From Acidobacteriota bacterium (GTDB lineage: Bacteria; Acidobacteriota; Terriglobia; Acidiferrales; UBA7541), in NCBI GenBank assembly GCA_003223215.1, contig QHYH01000114.1, positions 1 through 64,000 on the forward strand: 64,000 nt of DNA, given 5' to 3'. The notes beneath the pieces were generated by a model. That model did not search any database. It worked only from the letters and a program-made list of their open reading frames with translations, and was not told the origin of the DNA. Both the position numbers and the translations under genes were made by a program. Below, one piece after another: positions 23,718-43,517 of the stretch. Position 1 is the first letter of the stretch; every line of letters begins with the position of its first letter.

Positions 23718-24794
23718 CTACGGATGGTGGAAATGAGGGAGGACTTTTTCGCCGAACAGACGAGCCTGCTCGAGGCGGTCGTCGCCCCAGAGTTCCAGCA
23801 TCATCTGGGTGCAGCCCGCGGCGCGATATTCCTCGAGTTTTTCGATGCACTGTTTTGGCGAACCCGCGATGGGACAAACCTTCTCGAGCGTCGAATCGGA
23901 GAGGGCGCGCGCAGCGGCTTTGCGGCCGCCTTTTTCCATAGCGTCGGCGATGGGCTCGATTTCTTCGCGCGTTAGCCCGGCGCACTCCAGTAGTGTGTCC
24001 GCCGAGCCCTTGATGTTTTGCACTTTGTTGGCGAGGTACATGGCGGCCATTTCGCGGGCTCCTTCACGAGCGGTTCTTGGATCTTCGCCGACGCTGCCAA
24101 TCACCACACAACCAAGATCGAGCTGAGAGGCGTCGCGGCCGGCCTTCTTCGCGCCATCCTCCATGACTTTGCGCGAATACCTGGCAAATTTCGGCGTGGT
24201 GATGCTTGCGGTGAGCAAGCCCTGCGTCATGGCGCCAGCGAGCCGCTGCAGGACCGGGCCGGTGGCGCCAACGTAAATCGGCGGCAGCCAGCGCGGCGCG
24301 CGCGCGTCGGATTTCAGGGCCGGTGCAAAGGCCTGAAACGCTTTGCCTTGATACTTCACCTCGTTGCCGGAGAGCATGCCCTTGATAATCTCGATGCTTT
24401 CGCGCATCACGGTGGCCGGTCCGACGTCCCTGCCCTTCTCGCCTTCGCCAATTTCCTTCATAAAGATCTTCGATGCGCCGAGACCGAGAAGAAAGCGTCC
24501 CTCACCGGCAGCTTCCTGGAGGATGCGCGCCTCCATGGCAATCTGCACCGGATGACGGGTGTAGGGCGAAATGATGCCCCAGGCGATGACGATTCTTTTT
24601 GTTTCGCGCGCAATGATGGCCGTCGCGGCGGTGGAGGAACGCGCCTCCATCGAGTGCTTGCGCCACCAGGGGTAAGCCTCTGCCAGCCAGAAGACGTCGA
24701 AGCCGGCAGCGTCACACGCCTGCGCCATATGCACGGTCTCGTCGAGCGGCTCCATACTCAATTGCAGAACGCCAATTTTGAACGGAAGACTCAT
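23718..24794 (-). CDS. Luciferase-like flavin/F420-dependent oxidoreductase
   Basis: A 358-residue TIM-barrel oxidoreductase of the luciferase-like family, related to methylenetetrahydromethanopterin reductase. Signatures are FDVFWLAEAYPW near residue 33, RFLLGLGASKIFMKEIG near residue 115 and PPIYVGATGPVLQRLAG near residue 180. The window also encodes cofG and npdG, so F420 is available and is the likelier cofactor, though FMN cannot be excluded. The ribosome site AAGGAG is four bases from the ATG. Confidence 0.87.
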   Translation of the reverse strand: MSLPFKIGVLQLSMEPLDETVHMAQACDAAGFDVFWLAEAYPWWRKHSMEARSSTAATAIIARETKRIVIAWGIISPYTRHPVQIAMEARILQEAAGEGRFLLGLGASKIFMKEIGEGEKGRDVGPATVMRESIEIIKGMLSGNEVKYQGKAFQAFAPALKSDARAPRWLPPIYVGATGPVLQRLAGAMTQGLLTASITTPKFARYSRKVMEDGAKKAGRDASQLDLGCVVIGSVGEDPRTAREGAREMAAMYLANKVQNIKGSADTLLECAGLTREEIEPIADAMEKGGRKAAARALSDSTLEKVCPIAGSPKQCIEKLEEYRAAGCTQMMLELWGDDRLEQARLFGEKVLPHFHHP

Positions 24795-24979: not shown

Positions 24980-25462
24980 TCAACAAATCATTTCCCTATA
25001 GCAGTCGTTGGAGCAAAAGCCTTCCCGATCGTACAAGCTTATGGCGCCAGGCTCGGAATGAAGCCACACTCTCCCCACGCGTCGAGCCTTGGCAAAGGCC
25101 AGGATCTTTCTGAGCATGCGACGGCCGAGTCCCTTGCGCCGCCAATCGACCGCCGTGTACATGCCCATCAAGTACGCCTCCTTTCCTGAGAGATTGCCCC
25201 GGTAGGGAGGACGCGCGTAAAAGGCGAGGCCTCCGCACGCTACCGCTTGACCTCGAATCTTGCCGATGAATCCCACATATCGTCCGGCCTTCAATTCCCT
25301 GTGAAAGTACCGCCGGATCGCGCCCATCAGCTCTTTCCCCTCGGTTTTACTGTGCACGTTGCCGACTTCTTTCAGTAGCGCCATTCTCATCTCGACCAAT
25401 GTGGCGATGTCTTGGCGCTCCGCCCTGCGAACCAGCATCTTTGGCTCGTACTTTTTTGGCAT
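24980..25462 (-). CDS. GNAT family N-acetyltransferase
   Basis: A 160-residue acetyl-CoA-dependent acyltransferase. The acetyl-CoA loop is MYTAVDWRRKGLGRRMLRKI near residue 110, followed by VWLHSEPGAISLYDREGF. I chose ATG 25462 (MPKKYEP) because GAGAGGG precedes it; the frame opens earlier at a TTG (25495). It is the last gene of the leftward run that begins with the Mo-hydroxylase, 48 bases after the reductase gene. The substrate is unknown. Confidence 0.87.
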   Translation of the reverse strand: MPKKYEPKMLVRRAERQDIATLVEMRMALLKEVGNVHSKTEGKELMGAIRRYFHRELKAGRYVGFIGKIRGQAVACGGLAFYARPPYRGNLSGKEAYLMGMYTAVDWRRKGLGRRMLRKILAFAKARRVGRVWLHSEPGAISLYDREGFCSNDCYREMIC

Positions 25463-25510
25463 CGGAGCCCTCTCTCTCGCAATAGGCATCGGCAACCCTG
25501 AAAGAAGTAT

Positions 25511-26437
25511 TCAAGGGTCGGTCCAGGAATGTTCGAGCCCTTTGATCAATTGCCACATGGCCCGATTCAGGGGAGTCGGCACTCCGGTCTTCTTTCCCCA
25601 TTCCACAATCGCGCCGTTCATGAAGTCGACCTCGGTTTGCCGTTTGGCCAGCACGTCCTGCAGCATGCTGGCGTGGTGCTTGCCCGGAGCGCTTGCCCCC
25701 CTTTCCACCAGCTCGCGCGGGTCGCCGTGAAGTTCGATTCCCAGAGCCCTGGCCACAGCTTCCCCTTCCGCGATGAGGTCGTTGAAAAGCGCTCCGGTCG
25801 AAGGGAGGCGAGTGGCGGCGCGATGGTGGAGGAGCGTAAGGGCGCCCACGGGATTTGTCGAGGCGTTGAAGATCAGCTTCGTCCATTGCGCGCCCCGTGC
25901 GTCTTCGAGCGGGATAACCTGCATGCCGCCGCGATTGAGCAGGCCCGCAAGGCGCTCGACAAACTCATAGGGCGTGTTCGTGGGCTCGAAGGGCCCGATC
26001 CAGGTGTCGCCGTTGATGTCAAAGCCGACGTGTCCCGGTCCGATAAGATGGCCTGCCGGAAACGTCGTTCCGCGAATCACGTATCGGACATGCTCGGCAA
26101 GAATCTCTTCGTTGCCAACGCCGTTCTGCACCGAGCACACCGCGCTGGCTAGACCGAAGATGTGTTTCGTTTGCTCGATCGCACGGCGCGTGTGCGTGCT
26201 TTTCGTGGCAACAATGCCAAGATCGCAAGCCGGAATCTGTGAGACGTCCGAGGTCGCCTCGAGGTGCACCGTAAAATCCGCCGCGCCGCTGATGCGCAGG
26301 CCGCGCTCATGAATGGCGCGAACGTGCTCTTTGTTCACGTCGTAAGCGTAGACTTCGACTTCTTCCAGTCGTGCAAGATGCGCCCCGAAGATGCTGCCAA
26401 TCGCGCCGCAGCCGACGATGCAGACCTTCACGCTCAT
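25511..26437 (-). CDS. Ketopantoate reductase (PanE/ApbA) family protein, copy 1
   Basis: A 308-residue NADPH-dependent 2-oxo acid reductase of the PanE family. The N-terminal Rossmann motif is VCIVGCGAIGSIFGAH; the lysine in IVATKSTHTRRA and the asparagine in SVQNGVGNEEI fit the family's active site, as does KLIFNASTNPVGAL. Its start overlaps the previous stop as ATGA. A paralogue in the same run (30742-31689) shares the layout and motifs such as IGPFEPT and EDARGAQW. Two copies inside a catabolic-looking run argue against a pantothenate role. Confidence 0.85.
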   Translation of the reverse strand: MSVKVCIVGCGAIGSIFGAHLARLEEVEVYAYDVNKEHVRAIHERGLRISGAADFTVHLEATSDVSQIPACDLGIVATKSTHTRRAIEQTKHIFGLASAVCSVQNGVGNEEILAEHVRYVIRGTTFPAGHLIGPGHVGFDINGDTWIGPFEPTNTPYEFVERLAGLLNRGGMQVIPLEDARGAQWTKLIFNASTNPVGALTLLHHRAATRLPSTGALFNDLIAEGEAVARALGIELHGDPRELVERGASAPGKHHASMLQDVLAKRQTEVDFMNGAIVEWGKKTGVPTPLNRAMWQLIKGLEHSWTDP

Positions 26438-27126
26438 GCGGCCTCCGATGCCGCAAGTCCTGCGAGCTCAGCCGCAAGCAAATCTGGCCGAGAAAGGAAG
26501 GGACAGTGCCCACCGGGAATCTCGATCGGTTCGACGCCGAGCAACCTCCGGCTGGCTCCCCGCGACCATCGAGGGTTGAAGGTCCGGTCTTCGGCACAAA
26601 CGATGGATTGGCTGGGCACGGCGGGCCATTTCTCAAGCGGTGGTGCTTCCGTAGCCACGCGGCTAGAGGCTTGCGGGCGCAGGTGCCTGATGGCCTCTTC
26701 GGCGAGCGTCCGATCGCAATCGTGGAAGAGGTAGTCGAGTGCATCCTGGCGATTCCGAGACGGATCTTTCCCGGGCCAGTCCGGCTGGAACATGTCGCGT
26801 TCTTCCCCGCGGAAACGGTCGAACAAGCTCCTCCCGAGCTTGGGGATGGCCGCCGCAAGAAACACCAGCAGCTCGACAGGGCGGCGAGAAGCCACGACCG
26901 GGATCACCATTCCCGCCATCGAGTGACCAACCAAAATGGGCGGCTCATCGAGATTCGCGAGTGCGCTCACAACCGCATCGGCATATTCGTTCGCACCGGC
27001 GGCCGCATCGCTCAATGGCAAATCCATGGCGACGACACGGTGGCCACCCGCGCGCAACAAAGGGATCACCTTGTGCCAAACCCAGGCATCCTGGCAAGAA
27101 CCATGGACCAACGCGAAAACGCTCAT
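26434..27126 (-). CDS. Alpha/beta hydrolase, methylesterase/hydroxynitrile lyase-like
   Basis: A 230-residue alpha/beta hydrolase. The oxyanion segment VHGSCQDAWVW follows the start directly, the nucleophile serine is in GHSMAG, and a C-terminal acid (CAEDRTF) and histidine (GGHCPFLSRP) complete the triad; this spacing resembles plant-type methylesterases. I chose ATG 27126 because it overlaps the upstream stop as ATGA; a longer frame to 27231 lies inside the upstream gene. It would hydrolyse an ester or C-C/C-N bond in the pathway of this operon. Confidence 0.88.
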   Translation of the reverse strand: MSVFALVHGSCQDAWVWHKVIPLLRAGGHRVVAMDLPLSDAAAGANEYADAVVSALANLDEPPILVGHSMAGMVIPVVASRRPVELLVFLAAAIPKLGRSLFDRFRGEERDMFQPDWPGKDPSRNRQDALDYLFHDCDRTLAEEAIRHLRPQASSRVATEAPPLEKWPAVPSQSIVCAEDRTFNPRWSRGASRRLLGVEPIEIPGGHCPFLSRPDLLAAELAGLAASEAA

Positions 27127-28289
27127 GCTCTGCTCGAAACCTCCGCCCCGGAGTAGAACTTCCACGGCACGCTCGCGAGGCATTCGCCCTCTTTCTTGCC
27201 AATGCGGTAGGTGTCTTGCGTATAGAGACACACCTGGCCGTTTTGATCCACAACCTGCGGATGGAAACTACAAACCATGTTTTCCCGGAGCGCGATCCGC
27301 GTATTCGCCCCGATCGCGGGATGTTCGATCATGGTCAAGCCGATGGAATGGCCGGTGAGATGGCCGAGCGCGAAGCCCGCGCGCTCGAACACATCGGCGG
27401 CGGCTTTGTGAACATCGCAGGCCAGAACACCGTCGTGCATCTTTAGTCGGGCTGCTTCCATCGCTTCCGGATAAACGTCGCTCATGGCGCGCGTGCGTGT
27501 GCTGGGCTGACCTTCGATGAGCGCCCGAGAAAATTCCACCCAGTAGCCGGCCTCACCGGTAACTTCGAGGGAGTACAGCAGCAAATCATCGGCGGCCACC
27601 TTGCGAAGCGAAGGAACCTTAAAGTGCGCTTCCGCTTCTCCGCCCGTACCGCTCAAGACGATGTTCATCATTCGCGGCCCGGCGCCGCGCGCAAAGAAAC
27701 GCCCGACCGCCGGGGCCATGATTTCCGCCTCGGTCTTGCCGGGCCGATAGGATTTCAAGAGCGCAGCGAACCCGTCGAGGATGATATCCATTGCATCGCG
27801 CACGCCTGCCAGCTCTTCCTCGCTTTTCACGGCGCGTGCCATATCGAATTGAAAATCAAAGGGAACAAGCTCGAGCGATCCTTGCTGAAGTTCGCGATAA
27901 TCCCGCACGGCCATGATGAAGTCCAGTCCGTAAACGCCGACGCGCTTCCACCTCTTTTCTTCGATTTTTTCGCGCAGCCATTTGCCAGGAATCTCCGCCC
28001 AGACCTGGTCGCGAACCCAAGGAGCCTTTTTGTCGCCGATCCAACGGGCCTCCCGAGGAAAGACGAGCGTGGGCTCACCGGATAGCGGCAGCAGAACGTA
28101 CACATAGCGGTGCACGATTTCAAAACCGGACACGTAGCGGACGGCGCCCTCAAAACCCGTGTACTGGTTTCCGCAAATAATAAGAGCAGCAAGGTGGTCG
28201 GCTGCCATGGCCGCGCGGATATTCGCGTAGCGGCGGTCGATCTCCTTTTGCGTGGGCCTCAGCGGCTTCGTCTGACCCTCCCTATCCAT
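27123..28289 (-). CDS. M24 (creatinase/aminopeptidase P-fold) protein with altered metal site
   Basis: A 388-residue two-domain pita-bread-fold protein. In active M24 metallopeptidases five ligands (Asp, Asp, His, Glu, Glu) bind two metals. Here the histidine is kept (GHLTGHSIG), but the Asp positions read Glu (SLEVTGEAGYWVEF), the first Glu region reads MVCSFHP and the last reads CLYTQDT with Gln. This points to a metal-free enzyme, as creatinase is, or loss of activity. ATG 28289 gives an 8-base overlap with the upstream gene; ATG 28322 is possible. A canonical paralogue is at 29570-30745. Confidence 0.8.
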   Translation of the reverse strand: MDREGQTKPLRPTQKEIDRRYANIRAAMAADHLAALIICGNQYTGFEGAVRYVSGFEIVHRYVYVLLPLSGEPTLVFPREARWIGDKKAPWVRDQVWAEIPGKWLREKIEEKRWKRVGVYGLDFIMAVRDYRELQQGSLELVPFDFQFDMARAVKSEEELAGVRDAMDIILDGFAALLKSYRPGKTEAEIMAPAVGRFFARGAGPRMMNIVLSGTGGEAEAHFKVPSLRKVAADDLLLYSLEVTGEAGYWVEFSRALIEGQPSTRTRAMSDVYPEAMEAARLKMHDGVLACDVHKAAADVFERAGFALGHLTGHSIGLTMIEHPAIGANTRIALRENMVCSFHPQVVDQNGQVCLYTQDTYRIGKKEGECLASVPWKFYSGAEVSSRA

Positions 28290-29562
28290 GCGCACCGCAA
28301 ATCTCCGCGGCCGCCAGGGCATAAATTTTTGCGGTGTTGACGAGCGTCTCGACGGCTACTTTTTCTCCTTCCGCGTCGCGCGGCCCGCTCGACGGCCCAT
28401 AGTTCAACGTTTCGATGGCAAAGCGCGTCATCACCGAGGCATCGGAATCCCACAAGACCGTATTGTGCTTGGCAGGCGTGCCCAGAACGCGCTCGTGGCA
28501 GGCTTCCACGGTTTTGACCAGCAGGTGATCTTTGGAGATCTCCGCCCCGGGAACGGAAACAAACGTTTCGTACTCCACCTCGTAGTCCGGGTGTCTCTTG
28601 CGAAGCTCGAGAACCAGTTGCTTGATCGCGATGCGCACCTCTTTGAGTGGCATCGTGGGAGGCACGCGCACATCGAGAAAGACGTCGGTGCGTTCCGGAG
28701 TGCGACTGACGCGCCAGGGAAAGCCGCCGCGGATGCAGCCAACGTTGACGACGCCAGGCTGACCATGGTACGCCGCTTTGTTTTCCCAAGCGGCAATCCA
28801 ATCGTAAATGGCTGGCAAGATTTCCTTCATGCGAAACACCGAGTTCAAATCTTGCTTGCCGCGTGTGAAGCCCGTATGCACGTAGTGGCCATGTACCGAG
28901 AGGCGCACCCACACCGTCCCGTAATGACCCAGGACCAGCTGCAGATCAGTAGGTTCGCCGAGGAGGCACATGTCGGGCAGCACCCCGTGGCTCACGAGAT
29001 GATGCGTCCCCACGCCGTAGCCGCGAAATTCCTTGCCGACGAATTCGTCGCTCCACTGCGTCTTCTCGATTTCGCCAACCACGGCAGCGACAAGCAGGTC
29101 GCCTTCGAGCTTCATGCCTGCGCGCTTCAGCGCCTTTATGGCTTGCGTATAGCAAACCAGCGCGCCCTTCATGTTGTAGATGCCGAGTCCGTAGATGAAC
29201 CCGTTCTTGATGATGGCTTTTGGTTTGTAACCGATCCCCGTTAAAAACTCTTCGCGCCCGGTGTTCGAAGTATCCATGTGGCCGTTGAACATCAGGCTCT
29301 TGCCGTTGCCCGTGCCTTCCCAGAGCCCCAGCACATTCGCGCGTCCCGGTTCGACCTCTTGCCAGGTAACTGTCAGTCCCGCCGCCTCAAGCGCAGCGCG
29401 GATGTAGCGCCCCATTTCCAGCTCTTCGCCCGTGGGACTCGGAATGTTGACGACGTCCGAGCACATGGCAACGAGTTCGTCTTCGCGAATCTGCCCGAGG
29501 ATCGCCTTGGTCAAATCCTCATTCACCCTGTCGGTTTTCCCTCGCACGGATGATGTCGCCAT
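28282..29562 (-). CDS. M20-like amidohydrolase (ArgE/DapE relative) with altered ligands
   Basis: A 426-residue protein of the M20 deacylase family. The first ligand motif NGHMDTS is intact near residue 96, but the bridging aspartate motif reads GIYNMKGA (Asn for Asp), the acidic pair reads VGEIEKTQ, and I cannot find the usual C-terminal histidine: the segment is NYGPSSGPRDAEGEKV. The dimerisation (lid) domain GHYGTVWVRLSVHGHYVHTG is clear. It may bind metal weakly or use another mechanism. It lies between the two M24 genes, seven bases after one and overlapping the other. Confidence 0.8.
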   Translation of the reverse strand: MATSSVRGKTDRVNEDLTKAILGQIREDELVAMCSDVVNIPSPTGEELEMGRYIRAALEAAGLTVTWQEVEPGRANVLGLWEGTGNGKSLMFNGHMDTSNTGREEFLTGIGYKPKAIIKNGFIYGLGIYNMKGALVCYTQAIKALKRAGMKLEGDLLVAAVVGEIEKTQWSDEFVGKEFRGYGVGTHHLVSHGVLPDMCLLGEPTDLQLVLGHYGTVWVRLSVHGHYVHTGFTRGKQDLNSVFRMKEILPAIYDWIAAWENKAAYHGQPGVVNVGCIRGGFPWRVSRTPERTDVFLDVRVPPTMPLKEVRIAIKQLVLELRKRHPDYEVEYETFVSVPGAEISKDHLLVKTVEACHERVLGTPAKHNTVLWDSDASVMTRFAIETLNYGPSSGPRDAEGEKVAVETLVNTAKIYALAAAEICGAHG

Positions 29563-29569
29563 CCTGGCC

Positions 29570-30745
29570 TCACAAACGAAAATCGTCGGGGTACGAGCAA
29601 AGCTTCTCGCAGCCGCTCTCGGTCACAAGAAAATTGTCTTCCAGGCGCAAGCCGCCACCGCCTTCCCAGTACACACCGGGCTCGATGGCCAACACCATAC
29701 CGGAACGCATGGTACCAGGAGCTGCCTGATGGGAATACGGCGGCTCGTGCGCCCGAGCGCCCACGCCGTGAGCAACGGGATGCGATGGCTGGCCCGGATA
29801 ACCCGCAGCCGCAATCCCTTTCCGCAGGATGCGATCAATGTCCCCGAGCGGCGCGCCTTCTCGAACACACGCGATTCCATCGGAGAAAATCTTCAGGAGT
29901 TGGTCGAGCAAACGGTTGTATTTCCCGGTAAGCCGCCCTGGACAAATATTTTTCGTGAGATCGGTCCAATAGCCGTCGGCGCAGACCCAGATCTCCACCA
30001 GCGTCGGCTCATTCTCGACCACCGGACGATGGCTGGTTGCCGTGAAGGTCGCGATGCCCTTCCCAGACCAGACCAGCGTGAACGCCCGCGCCATCGCGAC
30101 TTTTCCGTTGTAGCCGACCCCCACCGTGTGGATGTGGCCCTCGATCATGGCCGCCACTTCGCTTTCTTTCATTCCTGGCCTGATGTTCCTGCGCGCGTAT
30201 TCCATGCCGATCGAGGCCAATTCATTGGCAAAACGCATGCGCTCGATTTCTTGCGCGGTTTTGATCATGCGCACTTCGGCAAGCAGCGGTGCAGCGTCGA
30301 TGACTTCGCGGCAACGCGAACGAAACGCATCGTAATAACCCTGCCAGTAAACCGTCGGCTCCCCCACCATGCGATCGCAAATCTGTGAAAACTGCGAAAG
30401 CTCGATCCCCACGCGGGCATCGAGCTTCCGTTCCCGCAGAACATCGACCGCCATTTCGACGGCGCGCACCATGGGCGGGCGCGGGTCTTTCGCGTCGTAG
30501 AAATGGAAGAAGCGAACGTCTTTGTTCCACGCCGTGCGCTGCGCTTCGCGGAATTGTGGCTCGATGACCAGAAGCGTTGGATCGCCGTCGCGCGGAAAAA
30601 TAACCAGGTCATATCCCTTCATGGTCCAGTAGTTCGTCAGGTAAAGAATGTTGTCAGGCGCGCGGACCACCAGCGCATCGAGATGGTGCTGCTCCAGCAT
30701 CTCCCGCACGCGCTGCCACTTCTTTTCGTCGACGGGATAGCTCAC
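29570..30745 (-). CDS. M24 family Xaa-Pro-type peptidase/hydrolase
   Basis: A 391-residue M24 protein. The N-terminal creatinase-like domain starts with LDALVVRAPDNILYLTNYW; the catalytic domain keeps most metal ligands: Glu or Asp in LVEIWVCADGYWTDLTK, His in HPVAHGVGARAHEPP, Glu in MVLAIEPGVYW and Glu in LRLEDNFLVTE. It may be an aminopeptidase P or a hydrolase of another C-N bond. Its start overlaps the stop of the PanE-like gene by ATGA. Together with the altered paralogue it frames the M20-like gene. Confidence 0.87.
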   Translation of the reverse strand: MSYPVDEKKWQRVREMLEQHHLDALVVRAPDNILYLTNYWTMKGYDLVIFPRDGDPTLLVIEPQFREAQRTAWNKDVRFFHFYDAKDPRPPMVRAVEMAVDVLRERKLDARVGIELSQFSQICDRMVGEPTVYWQGYYDAFRSRCREVIDAAPLLAEVRMIKTAQEIERMRFANELASIGMEYARRNIRPGMKESEVAAMIEGHIHTVGVGYNGKVAMARAFTLVWSGKGIATFTATSHRPVVENEPTLVEIWVCADGYWTDLTKNICPGRLTGKYNRLLDQLLKIFSDGIACVREGAPLGDIDRILRKGIAAAGYPGQPSHPVAHGVGARAHEPPYSHQAAPGTMRSGMVLAIEPGVYWEGGGGLRLEDNFLVTESGCEKLCSYPDDFRL

Positions 30746-31689
30746 TTGGCAACCGCCTTTTCGTTGCCTTGGTAGGTCCAGGAAACCTCCTTGGCCTTGA
30801 TCAGCCGATAAAGGGCGGTATGCAGCGGCGCGGGGATCCCTGCCCGTTGCGCCTCACGGGCAATGGCCCCGCCAAGAAAATCGACTTCCGTTTCAAGCTT
30901 GTGACGGATGTCATAGAGCATCGAGGGCGGATGATCCGTCCGGGCGCCGACCTTGTTCATCTCCCAGGGGTCTTCGTAGAGCTTCACACCCAGGCCTTCA
31001 GCAACTCGTTTGCCTTCTTCGATCAAAGCATGCAGCAGATGTCCGAGATCGCTGAATTGTCCTTCTTCGGCAAAGTGGAAACTGTGTGGAAGCTCGGCAA
31101 GCGCCGCGACCGCATTCACTGAGGAATTGAAGATGAGTTTCGACCATTGTGCGGGACGGGCATCCTCTAAAGCCACCGCTTTCAATCCTGACGAATTAAT
31201 CAGGGCCGCGGCTTCCTCGACCAAGGAGAATGGCGTTTTTGTCGGTTCAAATGGCCCCATCCATGTGGCGGTATCCAGCTCATAGCGCACATGCGTATCG
31301 CTTACGCGCGTCCCGCTCATGAACGTCGTCCCGCGCATAACGCAGGTTTGCGCCATTTCGGCGACGACTTCTTCGCTGCCCAGGCCGTTTTGTGAAGAAA
31401 GGATAGCCCCCGTCTTGAAAAGATGAGCGACGGGAGCAACTGCGTTTCGCGTTTGCGTCGCCTTCGAGGCAACGATTCCGAAATCAAACTGTGGCAATAA
31501 GGAGGGATCATTCGTCGCCCGGAGACGCGCGTGCAATTCATGGGTGCCGGACACGCGCAACCCATCCTGGTTGAGTGCCCTGGCATGCTCCGCGCGCCGC
31601 ACAAAGGCCCACACTTCCGTCACACCCGCCAGATGCGCGGCATACAGGCTACCAATGGATCCGCAGCCAATGATGCACACGCGCTTCAT
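30742..31689 (-). CDS. Ketopantoate reductase (PanE/ApbA) family protein, copy 2
   Basis: A 315-residue NADPH-binding reductase, paralogous to the 25511-26437 product. It has the Rossmann motif VCIIGCGSIGSLYAAH, IVASKATQTRNA, SSQNGLGSEEVV, GPFEPTKTPFSLVEE and KLIFNSSVNAVAAL. It is the first gene after the Mo-hydroxylase block (44 bases) and overlaps the M24 gene by four. A 2-oxo or 2-hydroxy acid substrate is the family expectation; the true one is unknown. Confidence 0.85.
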   Translation of the reverse strand: MKRVCIIGCGSIGSLYAAHLAGVTEVWAFVRRAEHARALNQDGLRVSGTHELHARLRATNDPSLLPQFDFGIVASKATQTRNAVAPVAHLFKTGAILSSQNGLGSEEVVAEMAQTCVMRGTTFMSGTRVSDTHVRYELDTATWMGPFEPTKTPFSLVEEAAALINSSGLKAVALEDARPAQWSKLIFNSSVNAVAALAELPHSFHFAEEGQFSDLGHLLHALIEEGKRVAEGLGVKLYEDPWEMNKVGARTDHPPSMLYDIRHKLETEVDFLGGAIAREAQRAGIPAPLHTALYRLIKAKEVSWTYQGNEKAVAK

Positions 31690-31733
31690 CTAAGTTTTTC
31701 CTGACATCGCGGGAGAATATCAAAAATGACTCG

Positions 31734-34271
31734 CTACCGTGAGGCGGTGCGATGCTCGACACGAACCATCGCCGCGTAGCCGCCGCTTTCCGCCTTTCGC
31801 AGCGCGTGAAAGAGCGAATCCCCGGTGTTGTGCGAATCGTCGATGATCACGCCGCTCGGATAAAGTGCGTCCTGAAGCGCCGCGCAAATCGTGTGCACCG
31901 GAGCCGCGCCGCCTTCGCCCATGCCTTTCGCCCCGTTCAGCGTGAAGGGCGAGGGCGATTCCATGTGAGCGTAGAGGAGCTCCGGCATGTTCATCGCTGT
32001 GATAGGCGTGTAATCGCTGAACGTCGCGGTCAGCAGGTTGCCGTCGGAATCGTAGGCGCAATTTTCGAGCAGCGCTGCGCCGATGCCGTGCGCCGACGCT
32101 CCGTGCACCTGCCCTTCGACAATCCGCGGATTTACCGCTTTGCCGCAATCGTCCACGCAGGCATAAGCCAGGATCTTTGGTTGGAAGGTCTCCCGGTCCA
32201 CTTCGACGACCGCCGCATGGATTTGCGCCGCATAAGTCAGCGTGAGATTGCCGTACTTGCGCTGGACGTCGGGGATTTCGAAATTCGCATGAAAAACGTG
32301 GCGGCAGTTGAGTGTAATGTCCCAAAGTGATTTCGGCATCCCGGCATTGTTCACGTTGACCAGGTTCGCCAGCGCCCAGTAATTGATGGCTTTTTGCGTT
32401 CCTTTGGCACGAACTTCAGGTCCTTGGGCGCCGATGCCGAACTCCAAGTCTTTTTCCTTGGCTTCGAGTTTCCACGCCGCAAGCCTGCTCAATTCCTTGC
32501 GCAGCTTCATCGCAGCGCCGTGAATCGCGGTGAGCCCCGTTACGGCAAACTGGCTCGCGTACGTCCCCGTGTGACCGGTATACGCGTTGTGTGCGGTATC
32601 AAAGCCCGGCCGCACGTTCACAAGATCGGGTGTGATGCCGAGCGCGTCCGCGACTACCTGTGCCGCCGCTGTCTCGTGTCCTTGCCCCTGCGGCACCGAA
32701 CCCATGCTGACGACCACTTCTCCGTAGATATCCAGCTTGACGATGCCGACTTTGGACTGCCCCGAGAACGGTGCGTCGGGATTGATGATGCGCGCTTGTC
32801 CGAAATTATTAGTGCCCGAATCAAGCGTCGAGCCAATCCCGAGGCCAACCCAGCGCCTTTCGCTCCGCGCCGCAGCCTGTTTCTTCTTCCACCCGTCCCA
32901 ACCGATTAGTCTCTTCGCCGCCTCGAGCATGCTCGCGTAATCGCCCGAGTCATACACGCACCCGTTCGGCGTCTTGTATGGCATTTCGTTTTTGCGAATG
33001 TAATTGCGCACTCGCATCGCATCGGCCGGTATTCCCAGCGCCTGTCCGCAAATATCAATCACGCGCTCCATAAACCACAGGTGCTGCATCCGCGAGTAAC
33101 CGCGATTCGGCCCGACAGGACACTTGTTTGTAACCACCTGATGCATATCGATGCGGATGTTTTTCAGCCGGTACGTGGCAGGAAGCACTTGTGCCCAAAT
33201 CACGCAGCCGAGCGGCTCATACCGCGGAAACCCGCCGCAATCGTCAACGTGTTTCGAATCGATTGCCAAAATAACGCCGTTCTGGTCCAGCGCCACGCGC
33301 GTGTCGAGAAACACACGTTCGTTGCCGTGCGCGCTCGCTTGCATGTGCTCGATGCGCGTCTCGACCCACTTCACCCCACGCCCGCCCGCTTTGCGCGAAG
33401 CCAGAGCACAAACCGCCATGTACGGATAGCTTGTAATCTTGATCCCGAAGCCGCCGCCAATGTCGAAACTCTTCATGTGAATCTGGTCGATGCGCACGCC
33501 GAGCGCCGGTGCCAGAAACTGCGACGCAAAGGACGGAAACGTGTTGTTGCAGTGATACTCGATGTCGCCGGAGCGCGGGTCCCAGTTCGCCATGATGACG
33601 TTGCACTCGAGCGGCGTGCTCGAAAAACGATGAAAGTGCAATCGGCCGATGTGCACGACGTGGGCGGCCTGCTTGAAGGCTTTTTCGACGTCGCCGTATT
33701 CAAAAACGCCGTGCCAGTTGCGGTTCGTGCCCATGGCAGGGTGCAGGAGACTCTCGTCCTTCAGCGCGTCTTCTGCGCTAACAACAGCCGGCAATGGCTC
33801 GTAATCAACTTCAACCAGTTCCCCGGCGTCCTCCGCGGCAAGCCTGGTCTCCGCAACCACGGCAGCCACCGGTTCACCCTGAAACACAACTTTGTCCACC
33901 GCCATTGGATAATCGGCAATTTTCTGCGCGCCGCCGGGTCCAATCTCGATGAACGGCTGGACTTGCTTCTTGATTTCCGCGCCGGTCAACGTGCAAACAA
34001 CTCCGGGGAACTTCTCGGCCTTCGAGACATCAACCCGCGAGATTTGGGCATGCGCGTAAGACGACCGGATAAACCGGATATGCAGCATCCCGGGCATTTT
34101 TTCATCGTCAACGAAAATGCCCCTCCCGCGCACAAGGCGGCTCTCTTCCTTGCGCCGAATCGGCTGGCCCACCCACTTCGCGGCCGCGGTTTTCGTGCCA
34201 TTTGTGGAAGAGCTATGCGCCGCGGCGCGCGCCGGCTTCTTTTTACTCATCCTATTTGATTTGCGGGCCAT
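31734..34271 (-). CDS. Molybdenum hydroxylase large subunit (xanthine dehydrogenase/CoxL family)
   Basis: An 845-residue molybdopterin-cytosine-dinucleotide-type catalytic subunit that inserts water-derived oxygen into a C-H bond. SFDIGGGFGIK and PQGQGHETAAAQVV bind the cofactor; the catalytic glutamate is in KGMGEGGAAP near the C-terminus. The active-site loop reads CPVGPNRGYSRMQH: neither the AYXCSFR of form I CO dehydrogenase nor the AYRGAGR of form II, so CO oxidation is not supported. Small-subunit, FAD-subunit and CoxG genes lie just upstream in the same direction. ATG 34271 is preferred to the TTG one codon earlier. Confidence 0.9.
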   Translation of the reverse strand: MARKSNRMSKKKPARAAAHSSSTNGTKTAAAKWVGQPIRRKEESRLVRGRGIFVDDEKMPGMLHIRFIRSSYAHAQISRVDVSKAEKFPGVVCTLTGAEIKKQVQPFIEIGPGGAQKIADYPMAVDKVVFQGEPVAAVVAETRLAAEDAGELVEVDYEPLPAVVSAEDALKDESLLHPAMGTNRNWHGVFEYGDVEKAFKQAAHVVHIGRLHFHRFSSTPLECNVIMANWDPRSGDIEYHCNNTFPSFASQFLAPALGVRIDQIHMKSFDIGGGFGIKITSYPYMAVCALASRKAGGRGVKWVETRIEHMQASAHGNERVFLDTRVALDQNGVILAIDSKHVDDCGGFPRYEPLGCVIWAQVLPATYRLKNIRIDMHQVVTNKCPVGPNRGYSRMQHLWFMERVIDICGQALGIPADAMRVRNYIRKNEMPYKTPNGCVYDSGDYASMLEAAKRLIGWDGWKKKQAAARSERRWVGLGIGSTLDSGTNNFGQARIINPDAPFSGQSKVGIVKLDIYGEVVVSMGSVPQGQGHETAAAQVVADALGITPDLVNVRPGFDTAHNAYTGHTGTYASQFAVTGLTAIHGAAMKLRKELSRLAAWKLEAKEKDLEFGIGAQGPEVRAKGTQKAINYWALANLVNVNNAGMPKSLWDITLNCRHVFHANFEIPDVQRKYGNLTLTYAAQIHAAVVEVDRETFQPKILAYACVDDCGKAVNPRIVEGQVHGASAHGIGAALLENCAYDSDGNLLTATFSDYTPITAMNMPELLYAHMESPSPFTLNGAKGMGEGGAAPVHTICAALQDALYPSGVIIDDSHNTGDSLFHALRKAESGGYAAMVRVEHRTASR

Positions 34272-34297
34272 CAAAGGTCTCGTCTCTCGTGCTTAGA

Positions 34298-34741
34298 TTA
34301 GGCAAGCGCCTGCTGAAGCCCATCAATCAGTTTCTGCACGTTTTTCTTCCCCAGCGGCTCGAGCAAACCTCCGGCCAGCGAAATCACCCGACCCAGCACG
34401 CTCGATTGCCCCGACCATTTCACTTTCGTCTGCCCGCCCGGCAACTCTTCGAGTTGAAACCGCGCGCGAATCGTCGCCGAGCCTCCCGGCACCTCGCCTT
34501 TCCCTTCGTACGCCGCTTGCCGCGGCTTCTCCTCGTCGACCAAGGTCATCTTTACCGCGGCCGTCCCGCGAATATGCGAAATGCCCACGCTCAGTTTCAC
34601 CAGAAAATTCTTTGGATCCACAACCTCCATGCTTTCAAAATCCGGAAGCAGCGGACAAAAGCGCTTGGGGTCCACCAGGAACCCGTAGACTTCTTCCGGC
34701 GTTTTCTGCACCGTGAACTCGCCGGCGAGCTTGATCTCCAT
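34298..34741 (-). CDS. CoxG-like SRPBCC protein
   Basis: A 147-residue START/SRPBCC-fold protein of the CoxG group. It begins MEIKLAGEFTVQKTPEEVY and shows the LPDFESMEVV and GLLEPLGKKNVQKLIDGL segments common to CoxG. CoxG in carbon monoxide oxidisers anchors the enzyme to the membrane and helps quinone reduction; a similar role for this Mo-hydroxylase is an inference from position, between small- and large-subunit genes. Confidence 0.88.
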   Translation of the reverse strand: MEIKLAGEFTVQKTPEEVYGFLVDPKRFCPLLPDFESMEVVDPKNFLVKLSVGISHIRGTAAVKMTLVDEEKPRQAAYEGKGEVPGGSATIRARFQLEELPGGQTKVKWSGQSSVLGRVISLAGGLLEPLGKKNVQKLIDGLQQALA

Positions 34742-34744
34742 CGC

Positions 34745-35236
34745 CTACCGTTTCTCCATTTCCGCGGCGGCCATGCGAATGGACTTGAAAATGTTCTGAT
34801 AACCGGTGCAGCGGCAGGTATTGCCGGCGATGCCCTTCCGGATTTGCTCGTCGGTCGGCTTGGGGTGTTTCTCGAGAAGCTGCACCGTGGAAAGGAGGAT
34901 CCCCGGCGTGCAGTAGCCGCACTGCAACCCGTGGCATTCCGCAAAGGCTTCCTGGACCGCATCGAGCTTGCCGTCAATCCCGAGCCCTTCGACCGTCGTA
35001 ATTTCGCCGCCATCCGCCATCGGCGCGAACAGCGTGCACGATTTCACGGTGCGCCCGTTCAGAATCACCGTGCAAGCGCCGCAGTAGGACGTGTCGCATC
35101 CAACATGCGTGCCCGTCAGATTCAGATGCTCGCGCAAAAATTCCACCAGCAGCGTTCGCGGCTCGACCTCCGCTTCGCGCGCTTTTCCGTTCACGCGAAC
35201 GCGTACAAGAATTTTCTTAGCGTCCGGCATATTCAT
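34745..35236 (-). CDS. Molybdenum hydroxylase 2Fe-2S subunit (CoxS-like)
   Basis: A 163-residue electron-transfer subunit with two 2Fe-2S clusters. The N-terminal plant-type cluster uses [17 protein letters not shown] and a later cysteine (KSCTLF); the C-terminal cluster uses [10 protein letters not shown] and [10 protein letters not shown]. It overlaps the FAD-subunit gene by 20 bases. Either ATG (35236 or 35230) could be the start. Confidence 0.95.
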
Positions 35237-36119
35237 GCCCCGCTGGGACGGATTCCCCTCGCGCGCGCCGTGCCGCTATGCCGATGGCGCGCTTGACCAG
35301 CGTTCCCACTAACACCCGCTTGTAATCTGCCGAGCCGCGCATGTCGCTCTGTGGATCTGCAGCCGCTCGCGCGGCGTCCACGGCCGTCCGAATGCTCTTC
35401 TCATCGAGCGTCTTCCCGCGCAACGCCACCTCCGCTTCTTTCGCGCGAATCGCCGTAAGCCCCACGCAGCCCAAAACAATGCGTGCGTCTCTGCACAAGT
35501 GGTGGTCTTCGAGAGTAAGCTCGACCGAAGCACTCGCGGTGGGGTATACCGGCGCCGTGCGCTTGAACGCCAGGTGTGCGCCGCCGCTGCCCTTAGGCGG
35601 AAGCTTCACATGGACTCCGCTGATCAGTTCATCGTGGGCCAGCACCGTCGTGTACGCATCCTTGATGAAGGCTTCGAGCGGCACGGTGCGCTCGCCCCCC
35701 GGGCCAAAGCAAATGACGGAGGTCTCGAGCGCCATGAGCGCTGTTCCCCAATCGCCGCTCGGGTCGGCTTCCGCCAACGAGCCGCCGATCGTTCCCTGGT
35801 TGCGGACCTGTATGTCTGCGATCCCCGCCGCGCAATCGTGAAGGATGGGAATTGTGGAAGCGACTCGAGAGTCTTCGATTTCAGCATGGCGTGCGAGCGC
35901 GCCGAAACGCAGCTCCCCGTTGGACCTCTCGATGCCGTTCAGCCCGGAAATGAGATGGATATCGACGAGCGCGCCCGGTCGCGCCATGCGCATTTTCATC
36001 AGCGGAATCAAGCTCTGGCCCCCGGCAATGACACGTGCTTCCTCGCCAAGCTCCCGCAACAGCGTCACGGCTTCTTCTAGCGAAGCGGCGCGATGATACG
36101 AAAATGGGGCGGCGTACAC
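35217..36119 (-). CDS. Molybdenum hydroxylase FAD subunit (CoxM-like)
   Basis: A 300-residue FAD-binding subunit that passes electrons from the iron-sulphur subunit to the acceptor. FAD motifs are [17 protein letters not shown] near residue 30 and IRNQGTIGG-like [20 protein letters not shown] near residue 105. The start is GTG. It is the first gene of the leftward run of about eleven genes; the next gene upstream ends 139 bases away. Confidence 0.94.
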
Positions 36120-36258: not shown

Positions 36259-36750
36259 TCAGTTGCTGTTTTGCGCCCGCAGAAATCCCAGCGTCATTCC
36301 CGCCAGTGACACAATCACCAGCGCCGATCCCGCAACCGCCAGCGCACGGGGCTCAGACCCGTGGTTCAGCGTCTCGAGAAGCACTCCCAGCGGAAAAAGA
36401 AACGAACCCAGCACCAGCGCCGTCGCCAAAAGCATTTTCACCTGCTCGCTGAAGCTCACGCGGTCAAGCCCAATTCCCAAAACAATCAAAAGCATCGCGA
36501 GTCCAATCCAATGTCCATGAACATCGACGTGTCGGTCGTAGTCGTACTTCCGTTTCCGATACTGCTCGAGGGCGCTTTGCGCAGCTCGAGCATTGCGTTC
36601 CGCCGCGGCGCTAAAGCTTGCCGTCAACGATCTGCCGATGCCGTCGAGTTCTTGATGCTCCGCAAAAACCGCATACCACCCTCCGTAAATCATCCCGAGC
36701 AGCGCCAGGGCCATTCCTCCGACGATCAGCAAACGCCGCCCCGCGCTCAT
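36259..36750 (-). CDS. Membrane protein, single HxH module
   Basis: A 163-residue membrane protein I cannot assign to a named family. One transmembrane segment (residues 5-27) is followed by a roughly 45-residue polar stretch with a conserved histidine (AEHQEL), then VDVHGHWIGLAM at the head of the second segment and two or three more segments. The same module occurs twice in the protein encoded just upstream, whose stop overlaps this start as ATGA. The paired histidines suggest metal or haem binding; function unknown. Confidence 0.72.
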   Translation of the reverse strand: MSAGRRLLIVGGMALALLGMIYGGWYAVFAEHQELDGIGRSLTASFSAAAERNARAAQSALEQYRKRKYDYDRHVDVHGHWIGLAMLLIVLGIGLDRVSFSEQVKMLLATALVLGSFLFPLGVLLETLNHGSEPRALAVAGSALVIVSLAGMTLGFLRAQNSN

Positions 36751-37814
36751 CCTCTTGCTCCCATCGAAACAGATCCGGCATCCATCTCCCCGGTGTATCG
36801 CACGATTCCGATCCACATCGCCAGCAGCGCCAAAATCACCAGTAGTCCGCCCGCATCGGCAATCCCGCCGGCGAGAAGCCCGAGCCGCAACTCCAGCAAA
36901 ACGAACACCGGCAGCACCAGCGAACCGAGCAGCAACAGCCAGGCCCAATTTCGTTTCCACGATTCACACAGGCGCACATAACCTTGAAAAAAACCGAGCA
37001 GCATCGCCAGCAACCCGAACTCGATGGCGTGCGCATGCGCCGCGATATTCACGGCTTTTTCACCCGCCAATTCTCCATACTCCCCCACAGCCGTGTCCAC
37101 GGCAGTCCCATTCCTTGCGGCTGCCGTACTGGTCATCTCCGAGAGCAGCGAGTAATCCAGAGCCTCGTGCCGATAGAGATCAACTCCCGCGTAGTAGGCC
37201 CCATGAAGAAAGCCCAATAGCACGAGCCCGAGCCCGCCAGCGAAGAGAACGCGTCCAGCCATGCTGCGATCCGCGAGCAGGCCGTCTTCTTTTGCTGCCC
37301 ACTCTGGCCGGCGGAAGCGTCGGGCAACTCCAAATAGATAAGCAAGGGTGGCGAGAATGACGAGTGCGCCGCCGAAGTCCGCGAAAATACTGGCCCAGCC
37401 GATGGCTTCGAGCGGGCTGTAAGCGAGGCCAACGTAGTGGATCAGGAAGACGCCGACGGGCAGCAGCCACGCGCCAAAAAGGAACGTCCATGCAAGGTTC
37501 TTTCTTGTGCTTTCCCGAAGCGCCACCCACGGCTCGAAGAGCGCCAGCATCAGCGCCAAATACCCGAACGCAATCATGTGGACGTGGGTGTCCACTTTCG
37601 TTCCGCGGTTTTCAAGGAAACTCCCAACCGCTTGAAAACTCAAGGCGACCGCCCGCGCATCCCCCGCCACCGCCGCGTGTGCCGCCGACGATAAACTCTC
37701 TCCCACCTTCGCGGCATTCTGGTGCAAAACAAAAACCGCGAAAATGTCGCCGAAGAGCATCCCCACGAGAATGAGCCCGATGCCGCCAAGCACCAGCAGC
37801 CGCCGTGCGCTCAT
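36747..37814 (-). CDS. Membrane protein with two tandem HxH modules
   Basis: A 355-residue polytopic protein made of two copies of one module (about residues 1-170 and 185-350). Each has an RxLLxxGGxGLxLxG-type first helix, a histidine in the following loop (VLHQNA; YRHEAL), an H-x-H at the start of helix 2 (VDTHVHMIAFG; IAAHAHAIEFG), and later LLPVGVFL or LVLPVFVLLE and GGALVILA or GGLLVILA. I know no named family with this plan. ATG 37814 is preferred to the longer frame at 37886. The third copy is the next gene. Confidence 0.72.
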   Translation of the reverse strand: MSARRLLVLGGIGLILVGMLFGDIFAVFVLHQNAAKVGESLSSAAHAAVAGDARAVALSFQAVGSFLENRGTKVDTHVHMIAFGYLALMLALFEPWVALRESTRKNLAWTFLFGAWLLPVGVFLIHYVGLAYSPLEAIGWASIFADFGGALVILATLAYLFGVARRFRRPEWAAKEDGLLADRSMAGRVLFAGGLGLVLLGFLHGAYYAGVDLYRHEALDYSLLSEMTSTAAARNGTAVDTAVGEYGELAGEKAVNIAAHAHAIEFGLLAMLLGFFQGYVRLCESWKRNWAWLLLLGSLVLPVFVLLELRLGLLAGGIADAGGLLVILALLAMWIGIVRYTGEMDAGSVSMGARG

Positions 37815-37975
37815 TGGCCGAAACGCACTCTCGGCGTCTATCCCTACAACCGTTCCAAGACGCCCAGAATCCACCATCAAGGCCATCCCCAGCTGTCGCG
37901 CACTTTTCGATGAACAGCGGCCCGGCTAGCGATTTCTCCGCAGCCGGACCATGGAACGAAGATGATAAGACACTT

Positions 37976-42341: not shown

Positions 42342-43517
42342 TTACTGCGCTGCGAATCCGTCCGCCGCAGCTAGCGCGTTCATTTTTTGCCGCACTCGCG
42401 CCGAGACAAAATGTTCCCGTGCGACGAATTCCGGATACAGCGCCAGCCTCTCGCGCAGCACGAACCCTCTGGCCTCGGTTTCTTCTTGCAACTTCGAAAT
42501 CTGCGGCCACGCCGCCTCCGGATTGATGAAGTCTTTGGTCACAGGCGAAATCCCGCCCCAATCGTTGATCCCCGCGTCGAGCAATCGCGGAAAGTCCTCG
42601 TAGCTTAAATTCGGCGGCGCTTGCAGATTCATCTCCGCACCAAGAATCAACCGGGCAACCGCAAGCGTTCTTAACATTTCCTCGAGTGAAGGCTCAACGT
42701 GATGGGCCATCGGAATCTGCGGCTTTGCGCGAAAGTTCTGCACGATCACTTCCTGAATGTGACCGTACTTTTCATGCATCTTGCGGATCGCCAGCAGCGA
42801 GTCGATCCGTTCCTCCATCGTTTCGCCGATCCCGATCAGAATGCCGGTCGTGAACGCGATCGAGCGCTTCCCGGCTTCTTCGATCGTGCGCAGTCGCAGC
42901 GAAGGAACTTTGTCCGGCGCATTCGCATGCGGTAGGCCGTCGCGCATCAGCCTCACACTGACGTTTTCCAGCATCAGGCCCACACTGGCGTTCGATTCCT
43001 TGAGTTTGTCAAGCGCCGCGCCGTCCATCACGCCGGGATTCGCATGCGGCAAGAGCCCGGTGCGCTCGAGCACCAGCTCGCACATGGCCGCCAAATAATC
43101 CAGCGTACGTCGATAGCCTTGGCCCCGCAGAAATTCCCGCGCTTCTCGGAAAATCCGCTCCGGTTGATCTCCCAGGCTGAACAGTGCCTCCTTGCAACCG
43201 GCGCGCCGCCCTTCTTCGGCCATCGCCAGCACTTCGTCCGGCGTCATAAAGTGCGCGCCCGGCTGCCCAGGATCCTTCCGAAACGTGCAGTAGGAACAGT
43301 AGTCGCGACAGAGTGTCGTCAGCGGAATAAATACTTTCTTCGAGTAGCTGACGGCCCTGCCTTTCCCCTTTTCGCGCAAGTCGCCGGCCGTAGCTAGCAG
43401 TTCGTCGAGCGAAGTTGTTTCGGCTAGCCCCAGCGCCTCTTCGCCGCTCACACCTTGCCCCCGCCGCGCCCTTTCGAGCGCCGCCTCCGCCTTTCGCCTT
43501 GCTGTCCCTTGCGTCAC
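42342..43517 (-). CDS. cofG: 7,8-didemethyl-8-hydroxy-5-deazariboflavin (FO) synthase subunit CofG
   Basis: A 391-residue radical SAM enzyme that, with CofH, builds FO, the chromophore of F420. The iron-sulphur cluster cysteines are in CRDYCSYCTF near residue 70. EALFSLGDQPE, GLLPHANPGVM and FTTGILIGIGET are CofG motifs. It carries about 40 extra N-terminal and 30 extra C-terminal residues relative to the shortest CofG proteins. CofH and the later F420 genes are not in this window. Confidence 0.92.
   Translation of the reverse strand: MTQGTARRKAEAALERARRGQGVSGEEALGLAETTSLDELLATAGDLREKGKGRAVSYSKKVFIPLTTLCRDYCSYCTFRKDPGQPGAHFMTPDEVLAMAEEGRRAGCKEALFSLGDQPERIFREAREFLRGQGYRRTLDYLAAMCELVLERTGLLPHANPGVMDGAALDKLKESNASVGLMLENVSVRLMRDGLPHANAPDKVPSLRLRTIEEAGKRSIAFTTGILIGIGETMEERIDSLLAIRKMHEKYGHIQEVIVQNFRAKPQIPMAHHVEPSLEEMLRTLAVARLILGAEMNLQAPPNLSYEDFPRLLDAGINDWGGISPVTKDFINPEAAWPQISKLQEETEARGFVLRERLALYPEFVAREHFVSARVRQKMNALAAADGFAAQ

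Follow-up and report, generated by a model that had tools for sequence, protein, structure and literature searches.

A conserved molybdenum hydroxylase gene cluster with atypical M20- and M24-fold proteins in Acidobacteriota and Thermoleophilia

Which compound, if it is a single one, would call for a molybdenum (Mo) hydroxylase, two M24-fold proteins, an M20-fold protein and two ketopantoate-reductase-family enzymes to be encoded in one block? The question is raised by a locus on the minus strand of a 64,000-nucleotide stretch of an Acidobacteriota genome (positions 1 to 64,000 of contig QHYH01000114.1, assembly GCA_003223215.1; hereafter the window). The original prediction, made from the letters of the window alone, had read eleven genes of this locus as an operon for a complete oxidative-hydrolytic route acting on one compound. 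We observed a ten-gene core of defined families that is conserved in content and order among Acidobacteriota, co-occurrence of its members in a second phylum, and altered catalytic residues that are kept in both. The reading we prefer, to which we give about an even chance, is that these genes are dedicated to the catabolism of a single nitrogen-containing compound, with an N-heteroaromatic or amino-aromatic as the most plausible class.

Conservation of the cluster in two phyla

Conservation was assessed in the top 80 among 274 relatives, comprising 63 acidobacterial and 17 actinobacterial loci; acidobacterial loci with ≥21 kb of sequence are referred to as full-flank (n = 24). The conserved core consists of ten genes, FAD-FeS-CoxG-MoL-PanE1-M24a-M20-M24b-PanE2-LUX (see Table 1 for names), and all ten occurred in exactly that order in 23 of the 24 full-flank loci, the exception (L089) having no detectable CoxG, while FAD was the first core gene in every one of them. 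LUX was present in 24/24 full-flank acidobacterial and 16/17 actinobacterial loci, and the conserved unit therefore extends past the end that had been assigned to the operon. The alpha/beta hydrolase and the GNAT acetyltransferase, which had been counted as pathway members, were each matched in 1 of the 63 acidobacterial and none of the 17 actinobacterial loci; the sole locus matching them is a near relative (L035), with the GNAT match covering residues 10–68 only, so both genes look like local additions. The original prediction is partly supported: the genes form one conserved functional set, seen in two phyla and by co-occurrence, to which these two genes do not belong. A GNAT-family gene unlike that of the window precedes LUX in one locus (L109), with homologous ORFs in the Gaiella-like loci L104, L107 and L108. 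A gene for a TonB-type outer-membrane protein was found in 16/24 full-flank acidobacterial loci. The distribution within the phylum was patchy, with an M24b orthologue in 6 of 396 evenly sampled genomes, the window genome counted.

Two acidobacterial loci showed irregularities. In L022 (G032:C262) the M20 gene is in two pieces and M24b has an internal stop, through either draft-assembly error or decay. On a groundwater contig (L083:11294-20859) M24b-PanE2-LUX was not found after M20, and the locus instead holds four ORFs of 635–639 aa, perhaps an insertion, that are without homologues in the acidobacterial loci it was compared with.

The core gene families were also found together, rearranged, in Solirubrobacterales- and Gaiella-like actinobacteria (Thermoleophilia). 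One such locus (L112) reads LUX-M20-FAAH-M24a-HMGL-PanE1-PanE2-M24b-FAD up to the contig end, FAAH being an FAA hydrolase and HMGL an HMGL/isopropylmalate-synthase-like enzyme, and another (L111) has a near-identical order, except that PanE1 has a different position and FAD-FeS-MoL comes after. Relative to the window proteins, identities were 50–55% for M20, 55–61% for LUX, 46–53% for M24b, 51–66% for M24a (75% in one short piece), 50–55% for PanE1, 52–60% for PanE2, 50–55% for MoL and 53–61% for FeS. Restriction of the block to close relatives is excluded by these data, as 8/10 core proteins have relatives at ~46–66% identity encoded together in another phylum; the neighbourhood suggested as a check, holding the Mo large subunit, both M24 proteins, M20 and PanE, recurs in both phyla.

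The actinobacterial genomes were found through M20, and 10 of the 17 were searched whole. One M24b match (E 1e-30) was present in 10/10 and MoL at 50–53% identity in 9/10, with the next paralogues at ≤38%. In three genomes an M24b-PanE2-PanE1 unit stands without the other core genes in the stretches covered (L139, L140 and L141, the first of which stops at a contig end 0.7 kb past PanE1), and these genomes still hold M24b, the PanE pair and the remaining set. M24b, PanE1, HMGL, M24a, FAAH, M20, LUX and the Mo subunits fall within ~22 kb in G456, the genome of L110, which is a Gaiella and so belongs to Thermoleophilia. A sample of 299 genomes from that class yielded M24b in 58 (E 1e-60), M20 in 51 (E 1e-80) and MoL in 50 (E 1e-170), with all three in 43 and any of the three in 63; M24b and M20 occurred jointly in 49 genomes vs 9.9 expected. 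Incomplete sets consisted of M24b only (6), M20 only (1), MoL only (3) or two of the three (10). Seven of the 299 genomes had entered the sample because of M20, and 37 genomes have all three without them. Independent occurrence of the Mo hydroxylase and hydrolase halves, which would have undermined the original prediction, is contradicted by these counts, with 43 complete sets against 63 genomes holding any of the genes and single-gene genomes making up 10/63.

Within the window, the eleven-gene minus-strand operon was confirmed, each named Pfam family exceeding its gathering score, and so was its close packing. Three of the ten junctions are overlaps (20, 4 and 4 bases) and five are gaps (3, 23, 44, 7 and 15 bases); the remaining two are longer mechanical overlaps, whose 41 and 109 bases would be reduced to 8 and 4 if translation began at in-frame downstream ATGs (M24b residue 12, alpha/beta hydrolase residue 36). 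Third-codon-position GC of the eleven genes was 0.64–0.75. The description of the operon as duplicated fits PanE1 and PanE2 (45% identical) and does not fit M24a and M24b, which are 23% identical over 236 residues, a level that speaks for ancient divergence instead of recent duplication. A repeat search across the region returned short, weak matches only.

Table 1 Genes of the core, genes inserted within it and the membrane protein genes upstream of it.
Feature	Position	Strand	Assignment and remarks
FAD, FAD subunit of Mo hydroxylase, CoxM type	35217-36119	minus	PF00941 1.4e-48, PF03450
FeS, 2x[2Fe-2S] subunit of Mo hydroxylase	34745-35236	minus	PF01799 6.2e-30, PF00111
CoxG-like protein	34298-34741	minus	PF06240 3.6e-24
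MoL, molybdopterin subunit	31734-34274	minus	MoCoBD_1/2, Ald_Xan_dh_C
PanE1, ketopantoate-reductase-family enzyme	30742-31689	minus	TIGR00745 199.7 bits (cut-off 141.35)
M24a, creatinase/prolidase-fold hydrolase	29570-30745	minus	PF00557 3.4e-38; Asp->Glu at first metal ligand (E251)
M20-fold hydrolase, predicted 5-nitroanthranilate aminohydrolase type	28282-29562	minus	nearest solved structure 5k8m, 5.7e-50
M24b, creatinase/prolidase-fold protein	27123-28322	minus	four of five metal ligands replaced; mechanical start, downstream start likely
Alpha/beta hydrolase, inside operon, not conserved	26434-27231	minus	PF12697
PanE2, second ketopantoate-reductase-family enzyme	25511-26437	minus	TIGR00745 218.6 bits
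GNAT acetyltransferase, inside operon, not conserved	24980-25495	minus	PF00583
LUX, F420-type luciferase-fold (LLM) oxidoreductase, last gene of conserved core	23718-24794	minus	TIGR03555 F420_mer 147.3 bits (cut-off 348.7)
Small membrane-like protein	36259-36750	minus	ATGA overlap with 36747-37886
Membrane protein upstream of core, without Pfam family	36747-37886	minus	before core in 20/24 full-flank acidobacterial loci

The two membrane protein genes upstream of the core form a translationally coupled pair with His-x-His motifs in hydrophobic stretches, and homologues of the smaller protein (e.g., L037:2775-3263) are ~28–38% identical to part of the larger one. The pair could accept electrons from the Mo hydroxylase at the membrane. 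Genes for histidine ammonia-lyase, enoyl-CoA hydratase and Fpg downstream of the core were set aside, as they lie beside it only in the nearest relatives (L036-L038) among the flanks of the 80 loci.

Catalytic sites of the core enzymes

The FAD, 2x[2Fe-2S] and Mo subunits all score above Pfam gathering thresholds, which identifies a Mo hydroxylase of the xanthine oxidase family. MoL has GEGG at 786, with the catalytic Glu, and the loop NRGYSR at 390, while the FeS subunit has nine cysteines, including CGAC and CGYC. Mo hydroxylases hydroxylate C-H positions and do not themselves open rings, so the ring-opening role first given to this enzyme was dropped. Both PanE proteins pass the cut-off of the ketopantoate reductase model (Table 1) and keep the Lys and Glu motifs expected in that family (WxKLIFN and TEVDF).

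For M20, the nearest solved relative was 5-nitroanthranilic acid aminohydrolase (PDB 5k8m), the next PDB molecule matching at 3.5e-22. The two proteins share departures from the canonical M20 site, which has a bridging Asp and an Asp-Glu-Glu motif: M20 has Asn130 (IYNMKG) in place of the bridging Asp, where the aminohydrolase reads VNCKG, and both have Gly-Glu-Ile (G163-E164-I165 in M20) in place of Asp-Glu-Glu. R287 of M20 aligns with the residue that differs, Arg to Ala, between the 5k8m and 5k8p sequences. H95, D97, N130, G163, E164, I165, E203 and R287 were invariant in the readable sequences (66 acidobacterial, 17 actinobacterial). Its closest solved relative and the shared atypical residues place M20 in the 5-nitroanthranilate aminohydrolase branch. 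Residue counts here and below were taken from tblastn alignments, leaving out sequences under 44% (M24b), 50% (M24a) or 48% (M20) identity and counting sequences with identical first 60 aligned letters once.

Both M24 proteins depart from the metallopeptidase ligand set D, D, H, E, E. Compared with the Xaa-Pro dipeptidase PDB 1wy2, M24a has Glu251 for Asp at the first ligand and keeps D262, H326, E355 and E369, all five being invariant in the readable sequences (61 acidobacterial, 15 actinobacterial). Compared with the aminopeptidase P family protein PDB 7n02, M24b reads S251, E263, H325, H354 and Q369 at the five positions, of which H325 is kept; E263, H325, H354 and Q369 were invariant in the readable sequences (59–61 of 64 acidobacterial, the rest not covered, and 10/10 actinobacterial), and S251 was Gly in 4/10 actinobacterial sequences. 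In the methionine aminopeptidase scheme the positions of E263, H325 and H354 all serve the same metal, so that a mononuclear Glu-His-His site is a natural reading; for M24b we infer a possible mononuclear Glu-His-His(-Gln) metal site, and the altered site is directly testable with purified protein. Models predicted from shallow alignments were poor (mean pLDDT 56.1 for M24b and 50.4 for M20), and no structural claim rests on them. Because the altered metal-site residues are kept across two phyla, M20, M24a and M24b should not be read as ordinary peptidases, and their sequences suggest non-peptidase hydrolases instead. Proteins that family models label as M20 and M24 peptidases are thereby placed in a likely non-peptidase role, in a cluster built of known families in which the sites of two or three enzymes deviate from the family pattern.

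Plasmid searches with M20 and M24a returned distant homologues only, all <60% identical and at 26–30% among the 30 matches listed, and neither of the two plasmid neighbourhoods inspected was the same cluster. One of them, on an Acinetobacter plasmid (L115, NZ_CP087337.1), joins an M20 homologue (27.5%) with an LLM oxidoreductase, an isochorismatase-family hydrolase, a flavin reductase and an MFS gene between insertion sequences, and looks like another cassette for degradation of a nitrogen compound.

Proposed route and competing explanations

In the route that we propose, the three-subunit Mo hydroxylase would add a hydroxyl or oxo group from water to the ring, after which LUX, probably with F420H2, would transfer a hydride to the activated ring or an imine. 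M24a, M24b and M20, acting as non-peptidase hydrolases, would then open one or more C-N bonds and remove nitrogen, with M20 as a candidate aminohydrolase of the 5-nitroanthranilate aminohydrolase type. PanE1 and PanE2 may interconvert 2-oxo and 2-hydroxy acids, and FAAH with the isopropylmalate-synthase/HMGL-like enzyme, encoded elsewhere in the genome, would cut the carbon skeleton to central metabolites. Catabolic direction, substrate class, step order and cofactor are what this scheme adds to the observed genes. A narrower form of it, which we consider fairly unlikely, is an undescribed aerobic N-heteroaromatic pathway common to Acidobacteriota and Thermoleophilia that would combine Mo-dependent hydroxylation, F420-dependent ring reduction and hydrolytic opening; M24b would then represent a novel enzyme type, with a pita-bread fold in which the dinuclear site of the peptidases has turned into a mononuclear Glu-His-His(-Gln) one.

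FAAH and HMGL were repeatedly found beside the core, FAAH in 28/63 acidobacterial (14/24 full-flank) and 16/17 actinobacterial loci and HMGL in 28/63 (13/24 full-flank) and 11/17, respectively. In the window genome the two are adjacent on a separate contig (G000:C226:36720-38929; 68–70% identity), where no other cluster gene was detected by tblastn in the surrounding stretch (L134) and nine further ORFs belonged by Pfam to other families or to none. Within the genus, an HMGL orthologue occurred in 10/13 M24b-carrying vs 2/23 other genomes (Fisher p 6e-5); G009 and G016 have HMGL without M24b. FAAH and the HMGL-like enzyme thus join the set, and a longer degradative route therefore fits. Degradation is also favoured over synthesis by transporter and regulator genes in some actinobacterial loci, namely those for an MFS transporter (L100, L102), for Liv-type ABC ATPases (L107) and for a GntR/FCD regulator (L111). 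A tryptophan-2,3-dioxygenase-like gene (122 of 390.7 bits) lies near FAAH/HMGL in several loci (L045:14594-15427, L056, L059, L071, L081, L091 and L136); the hint it gives of an indole or kynurenine substrate, from 6/63 acidobacterial loci and L136, was too rare to use.

F420 is brought in by LUX, for which F420-dependent Mer was the best model and also the identity of all six best PDB matches. A cofG gene lies in the window ~6 kb upstream of the operon (42342-43517, minus; TIGR03550, 466 bits), while the window genes tested include neither cofH nor cofD, the cofD of the window genome being on another contig (G000:C215). Five more members of the genus have cofG on the core contig (G008, G012, G024, G030 and G032) and another five have it on a different one (G007, G010, G017, G026 and G033), and cofG-cofD lies beside the core in L064 and L136. 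cofG was found in 11/13 core-bearing vs 11/23 other genus genomes (p 0.04). These associations weakly suggest that LUX may be F420-dependent. A second luciferase-fold gene (L049:502-1584 and homologues) lies upstream of the core in 12/63 acidobacterial loci; it scored 104.2 bits with an FMN-type and 100.6 bits with an F420-type model, both below cut-off.

Several observations weigh against the proposed catabolic module or parts of it. FAD (31–38%) and CoxG (26–28%) are poorly conserved between phyla, one actinobacterial genome (G452) has no MoL orthologue, and the Fisher tests of co-occurrence (p 1e-38 to 1e-44) ignore shared ancestry, so these values should not be taken at face value. Within the flanks compared, FAAH is missing in 10/24 and HMGL in 11/24 full-flank acidobacterial loci, and 3/13 core-bearing genus genomes (G012, G017 and G023) have no HMGL at E 1e-60, though in G017 (L056) and G023 (L041) FAAH is present on the core contig. 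LUX falls below all curated F420 model cut-offs shown, its best score being 147.3 of 348.7 bits. cofD was not enriched, occurring at E ≤1e-30 in 11/13 core-bearing vs 14/23 other genus genomes (p 0.26; G012 with a partial match only, below the cut-off). Two carriers, G023 (95% complete) and G021 (73% complete), lack both cofD and a cofG over the cut-off, so these F420 genes were not found in all carriers. F420 use is therefore likely but not secured. None of the analyses points to a particular substrate.

Among the alternatives, biosynthesis of a small nitrogenous metabolite or cofactor, in which the isopropylmalate-synthase-like enzyme would build a chain, PanE reduce it, M20 deprotect it and LUX and the Mo hydroxylase tailor it, is improbable but keeps some weight. 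The HMGL-like protein scores 332.7 bits with the 2-isopropylmalate synthase and 284 bits with the homocitrate synthase model, both below cut-off, the distribution within the phylum is patchy, and genes for a CrtO-like FAD enzyme, a GNAT protein and a DegT aminotransferase occur in some loci; CrtO-like, GNAT and peroxiredoxin genes of some actinobacterial loci are likewise compatible with biosynthesis and count against a degradative direction. On the other side, Pfam tests of part of the flanking ORFs detected no NRPS, PKS, ligase or carrier gene, the Liv-type ATPases of L107 belong to an importer, and FAA hydrolases and Mo hydroxylases are typical degradation enzymes. A variant that keeps the catabolic module and makes LUX an FMN-dependent oxygenase opening the ring oxidatively, as TgnA and RutA do, with F420 uninvolved, is doubtful to a similar degree. 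It draws on G023, a core-bearing genome that lacks cofD and in which no cofG exceeds the cut-off, and on the LLM enzyme and flavin reductase that accompany the M20 homologue of the Acinetobacter plasmid, whereas the Mer identity of the six best solved relatives, the position of cofG or cofG-cofD beside the operon in several genomes and the lack of any flavin reductase met in the core speak for F420.

Much less probable is scavenging of amino acids or peptides, with M24 and M20 as true peptidases and the Mo enzyme oxidising an aldehyde formed downstream. Pfam does label these proteins as peptidase families, and Xaa-Pro dipeptidase and ArgE/DapE NCBIfam models are among the matches, all below cut-off, but four of the five metal ligands are replaced in M24b and one in M24a, neither the canonical bridging Asp nor the second canonical Glu is present in M20, and the replacements are kept in two phyla. 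That independent operons merely lie together by chance, as the locally added alpha/beta hydrolase and GNAT genes might suggest, is scarcely credible, being contradicted by the exact order in 23/24 loci and by the co-occurrence among the 299 genomes of the second phylum, even where the genes are unlinked.

We therefore retain a catabolic module for one nitrogen-containing compound as the preferred reading. Acidobacteria and Thermoleophilia are abundant in soil and, to our knowledge, few of their degradative pathways have been assigned. The joint retention of about twelve genes by two phyla suggests that a common compound is degraded by an undescribed route.

Comparison with known systems

Among curated models, none at pathway level was passed by the core proteins, the only pass being that of the general PanE subfamily model. 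No description of such a cluster was found in the open-licence full-text literature, a search that leaves subscription journals mostly outside. The subunit set of the Mo hydroxylase together with a CoxG-like protein resembles aerobic CO dehydrogenase (CoxMSL, CoxG), and CODH_aero_grp5 was the best NCBIfam model, but its 492.4 bits fall well short of the cut-off of 950; the CoxL loop carries a copper-binding Cys (AYRCSFR), whereas MoL of the window reads VGPNRGYSRMQ there, and CO dehydrogenase was rejected. Ectoine hydrolase (DoeA/EutD) is an M24-fold hydrolase that opens a ring and not a peptide, and M24a matches its model, but at 75.6 of 575 bits (36.2 of 613 for M24b); with no other ectoine gene met in the cluster, ectoine degradation was also rejected. 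For LUX, the closest solved relatives and best model are Mer, the F420-dependent methylenetetrahydromethanopterin reductase, which serves one-carbon metabolism, whereas LUX sits in this cluster and reaches less than half of the model's cut-off.

The 5-nitroanthranilate system is related through M20, which falls in the same branch as 5k8m and shares its Asn, Gly-Glu-Ile and Arg, although the match is distant (173 bits over ~400 residues). In the present cluster M20 sits with M24, PanE and Mo hydroxylase genes, and a 5-nitrosalicylate dioxygenase was not encountered.

In overall logic the proposed route resembles that of Eubacterium barkeri, which ferments nicotinate reductively and hydrolytically. 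The fermentation has an enamidase, a mutase and dimethylmalate lyase, whereas the window core lacks these genes and enzymes of other families would have to carry out the corresponding steps, if these occur at all; the likeness lies in the sequence of a Mo hydroxylase, ring reduction, hydrolytic opening and deamination, a 2-hydroxy-acid dehydrogenase and a C-C lyase.

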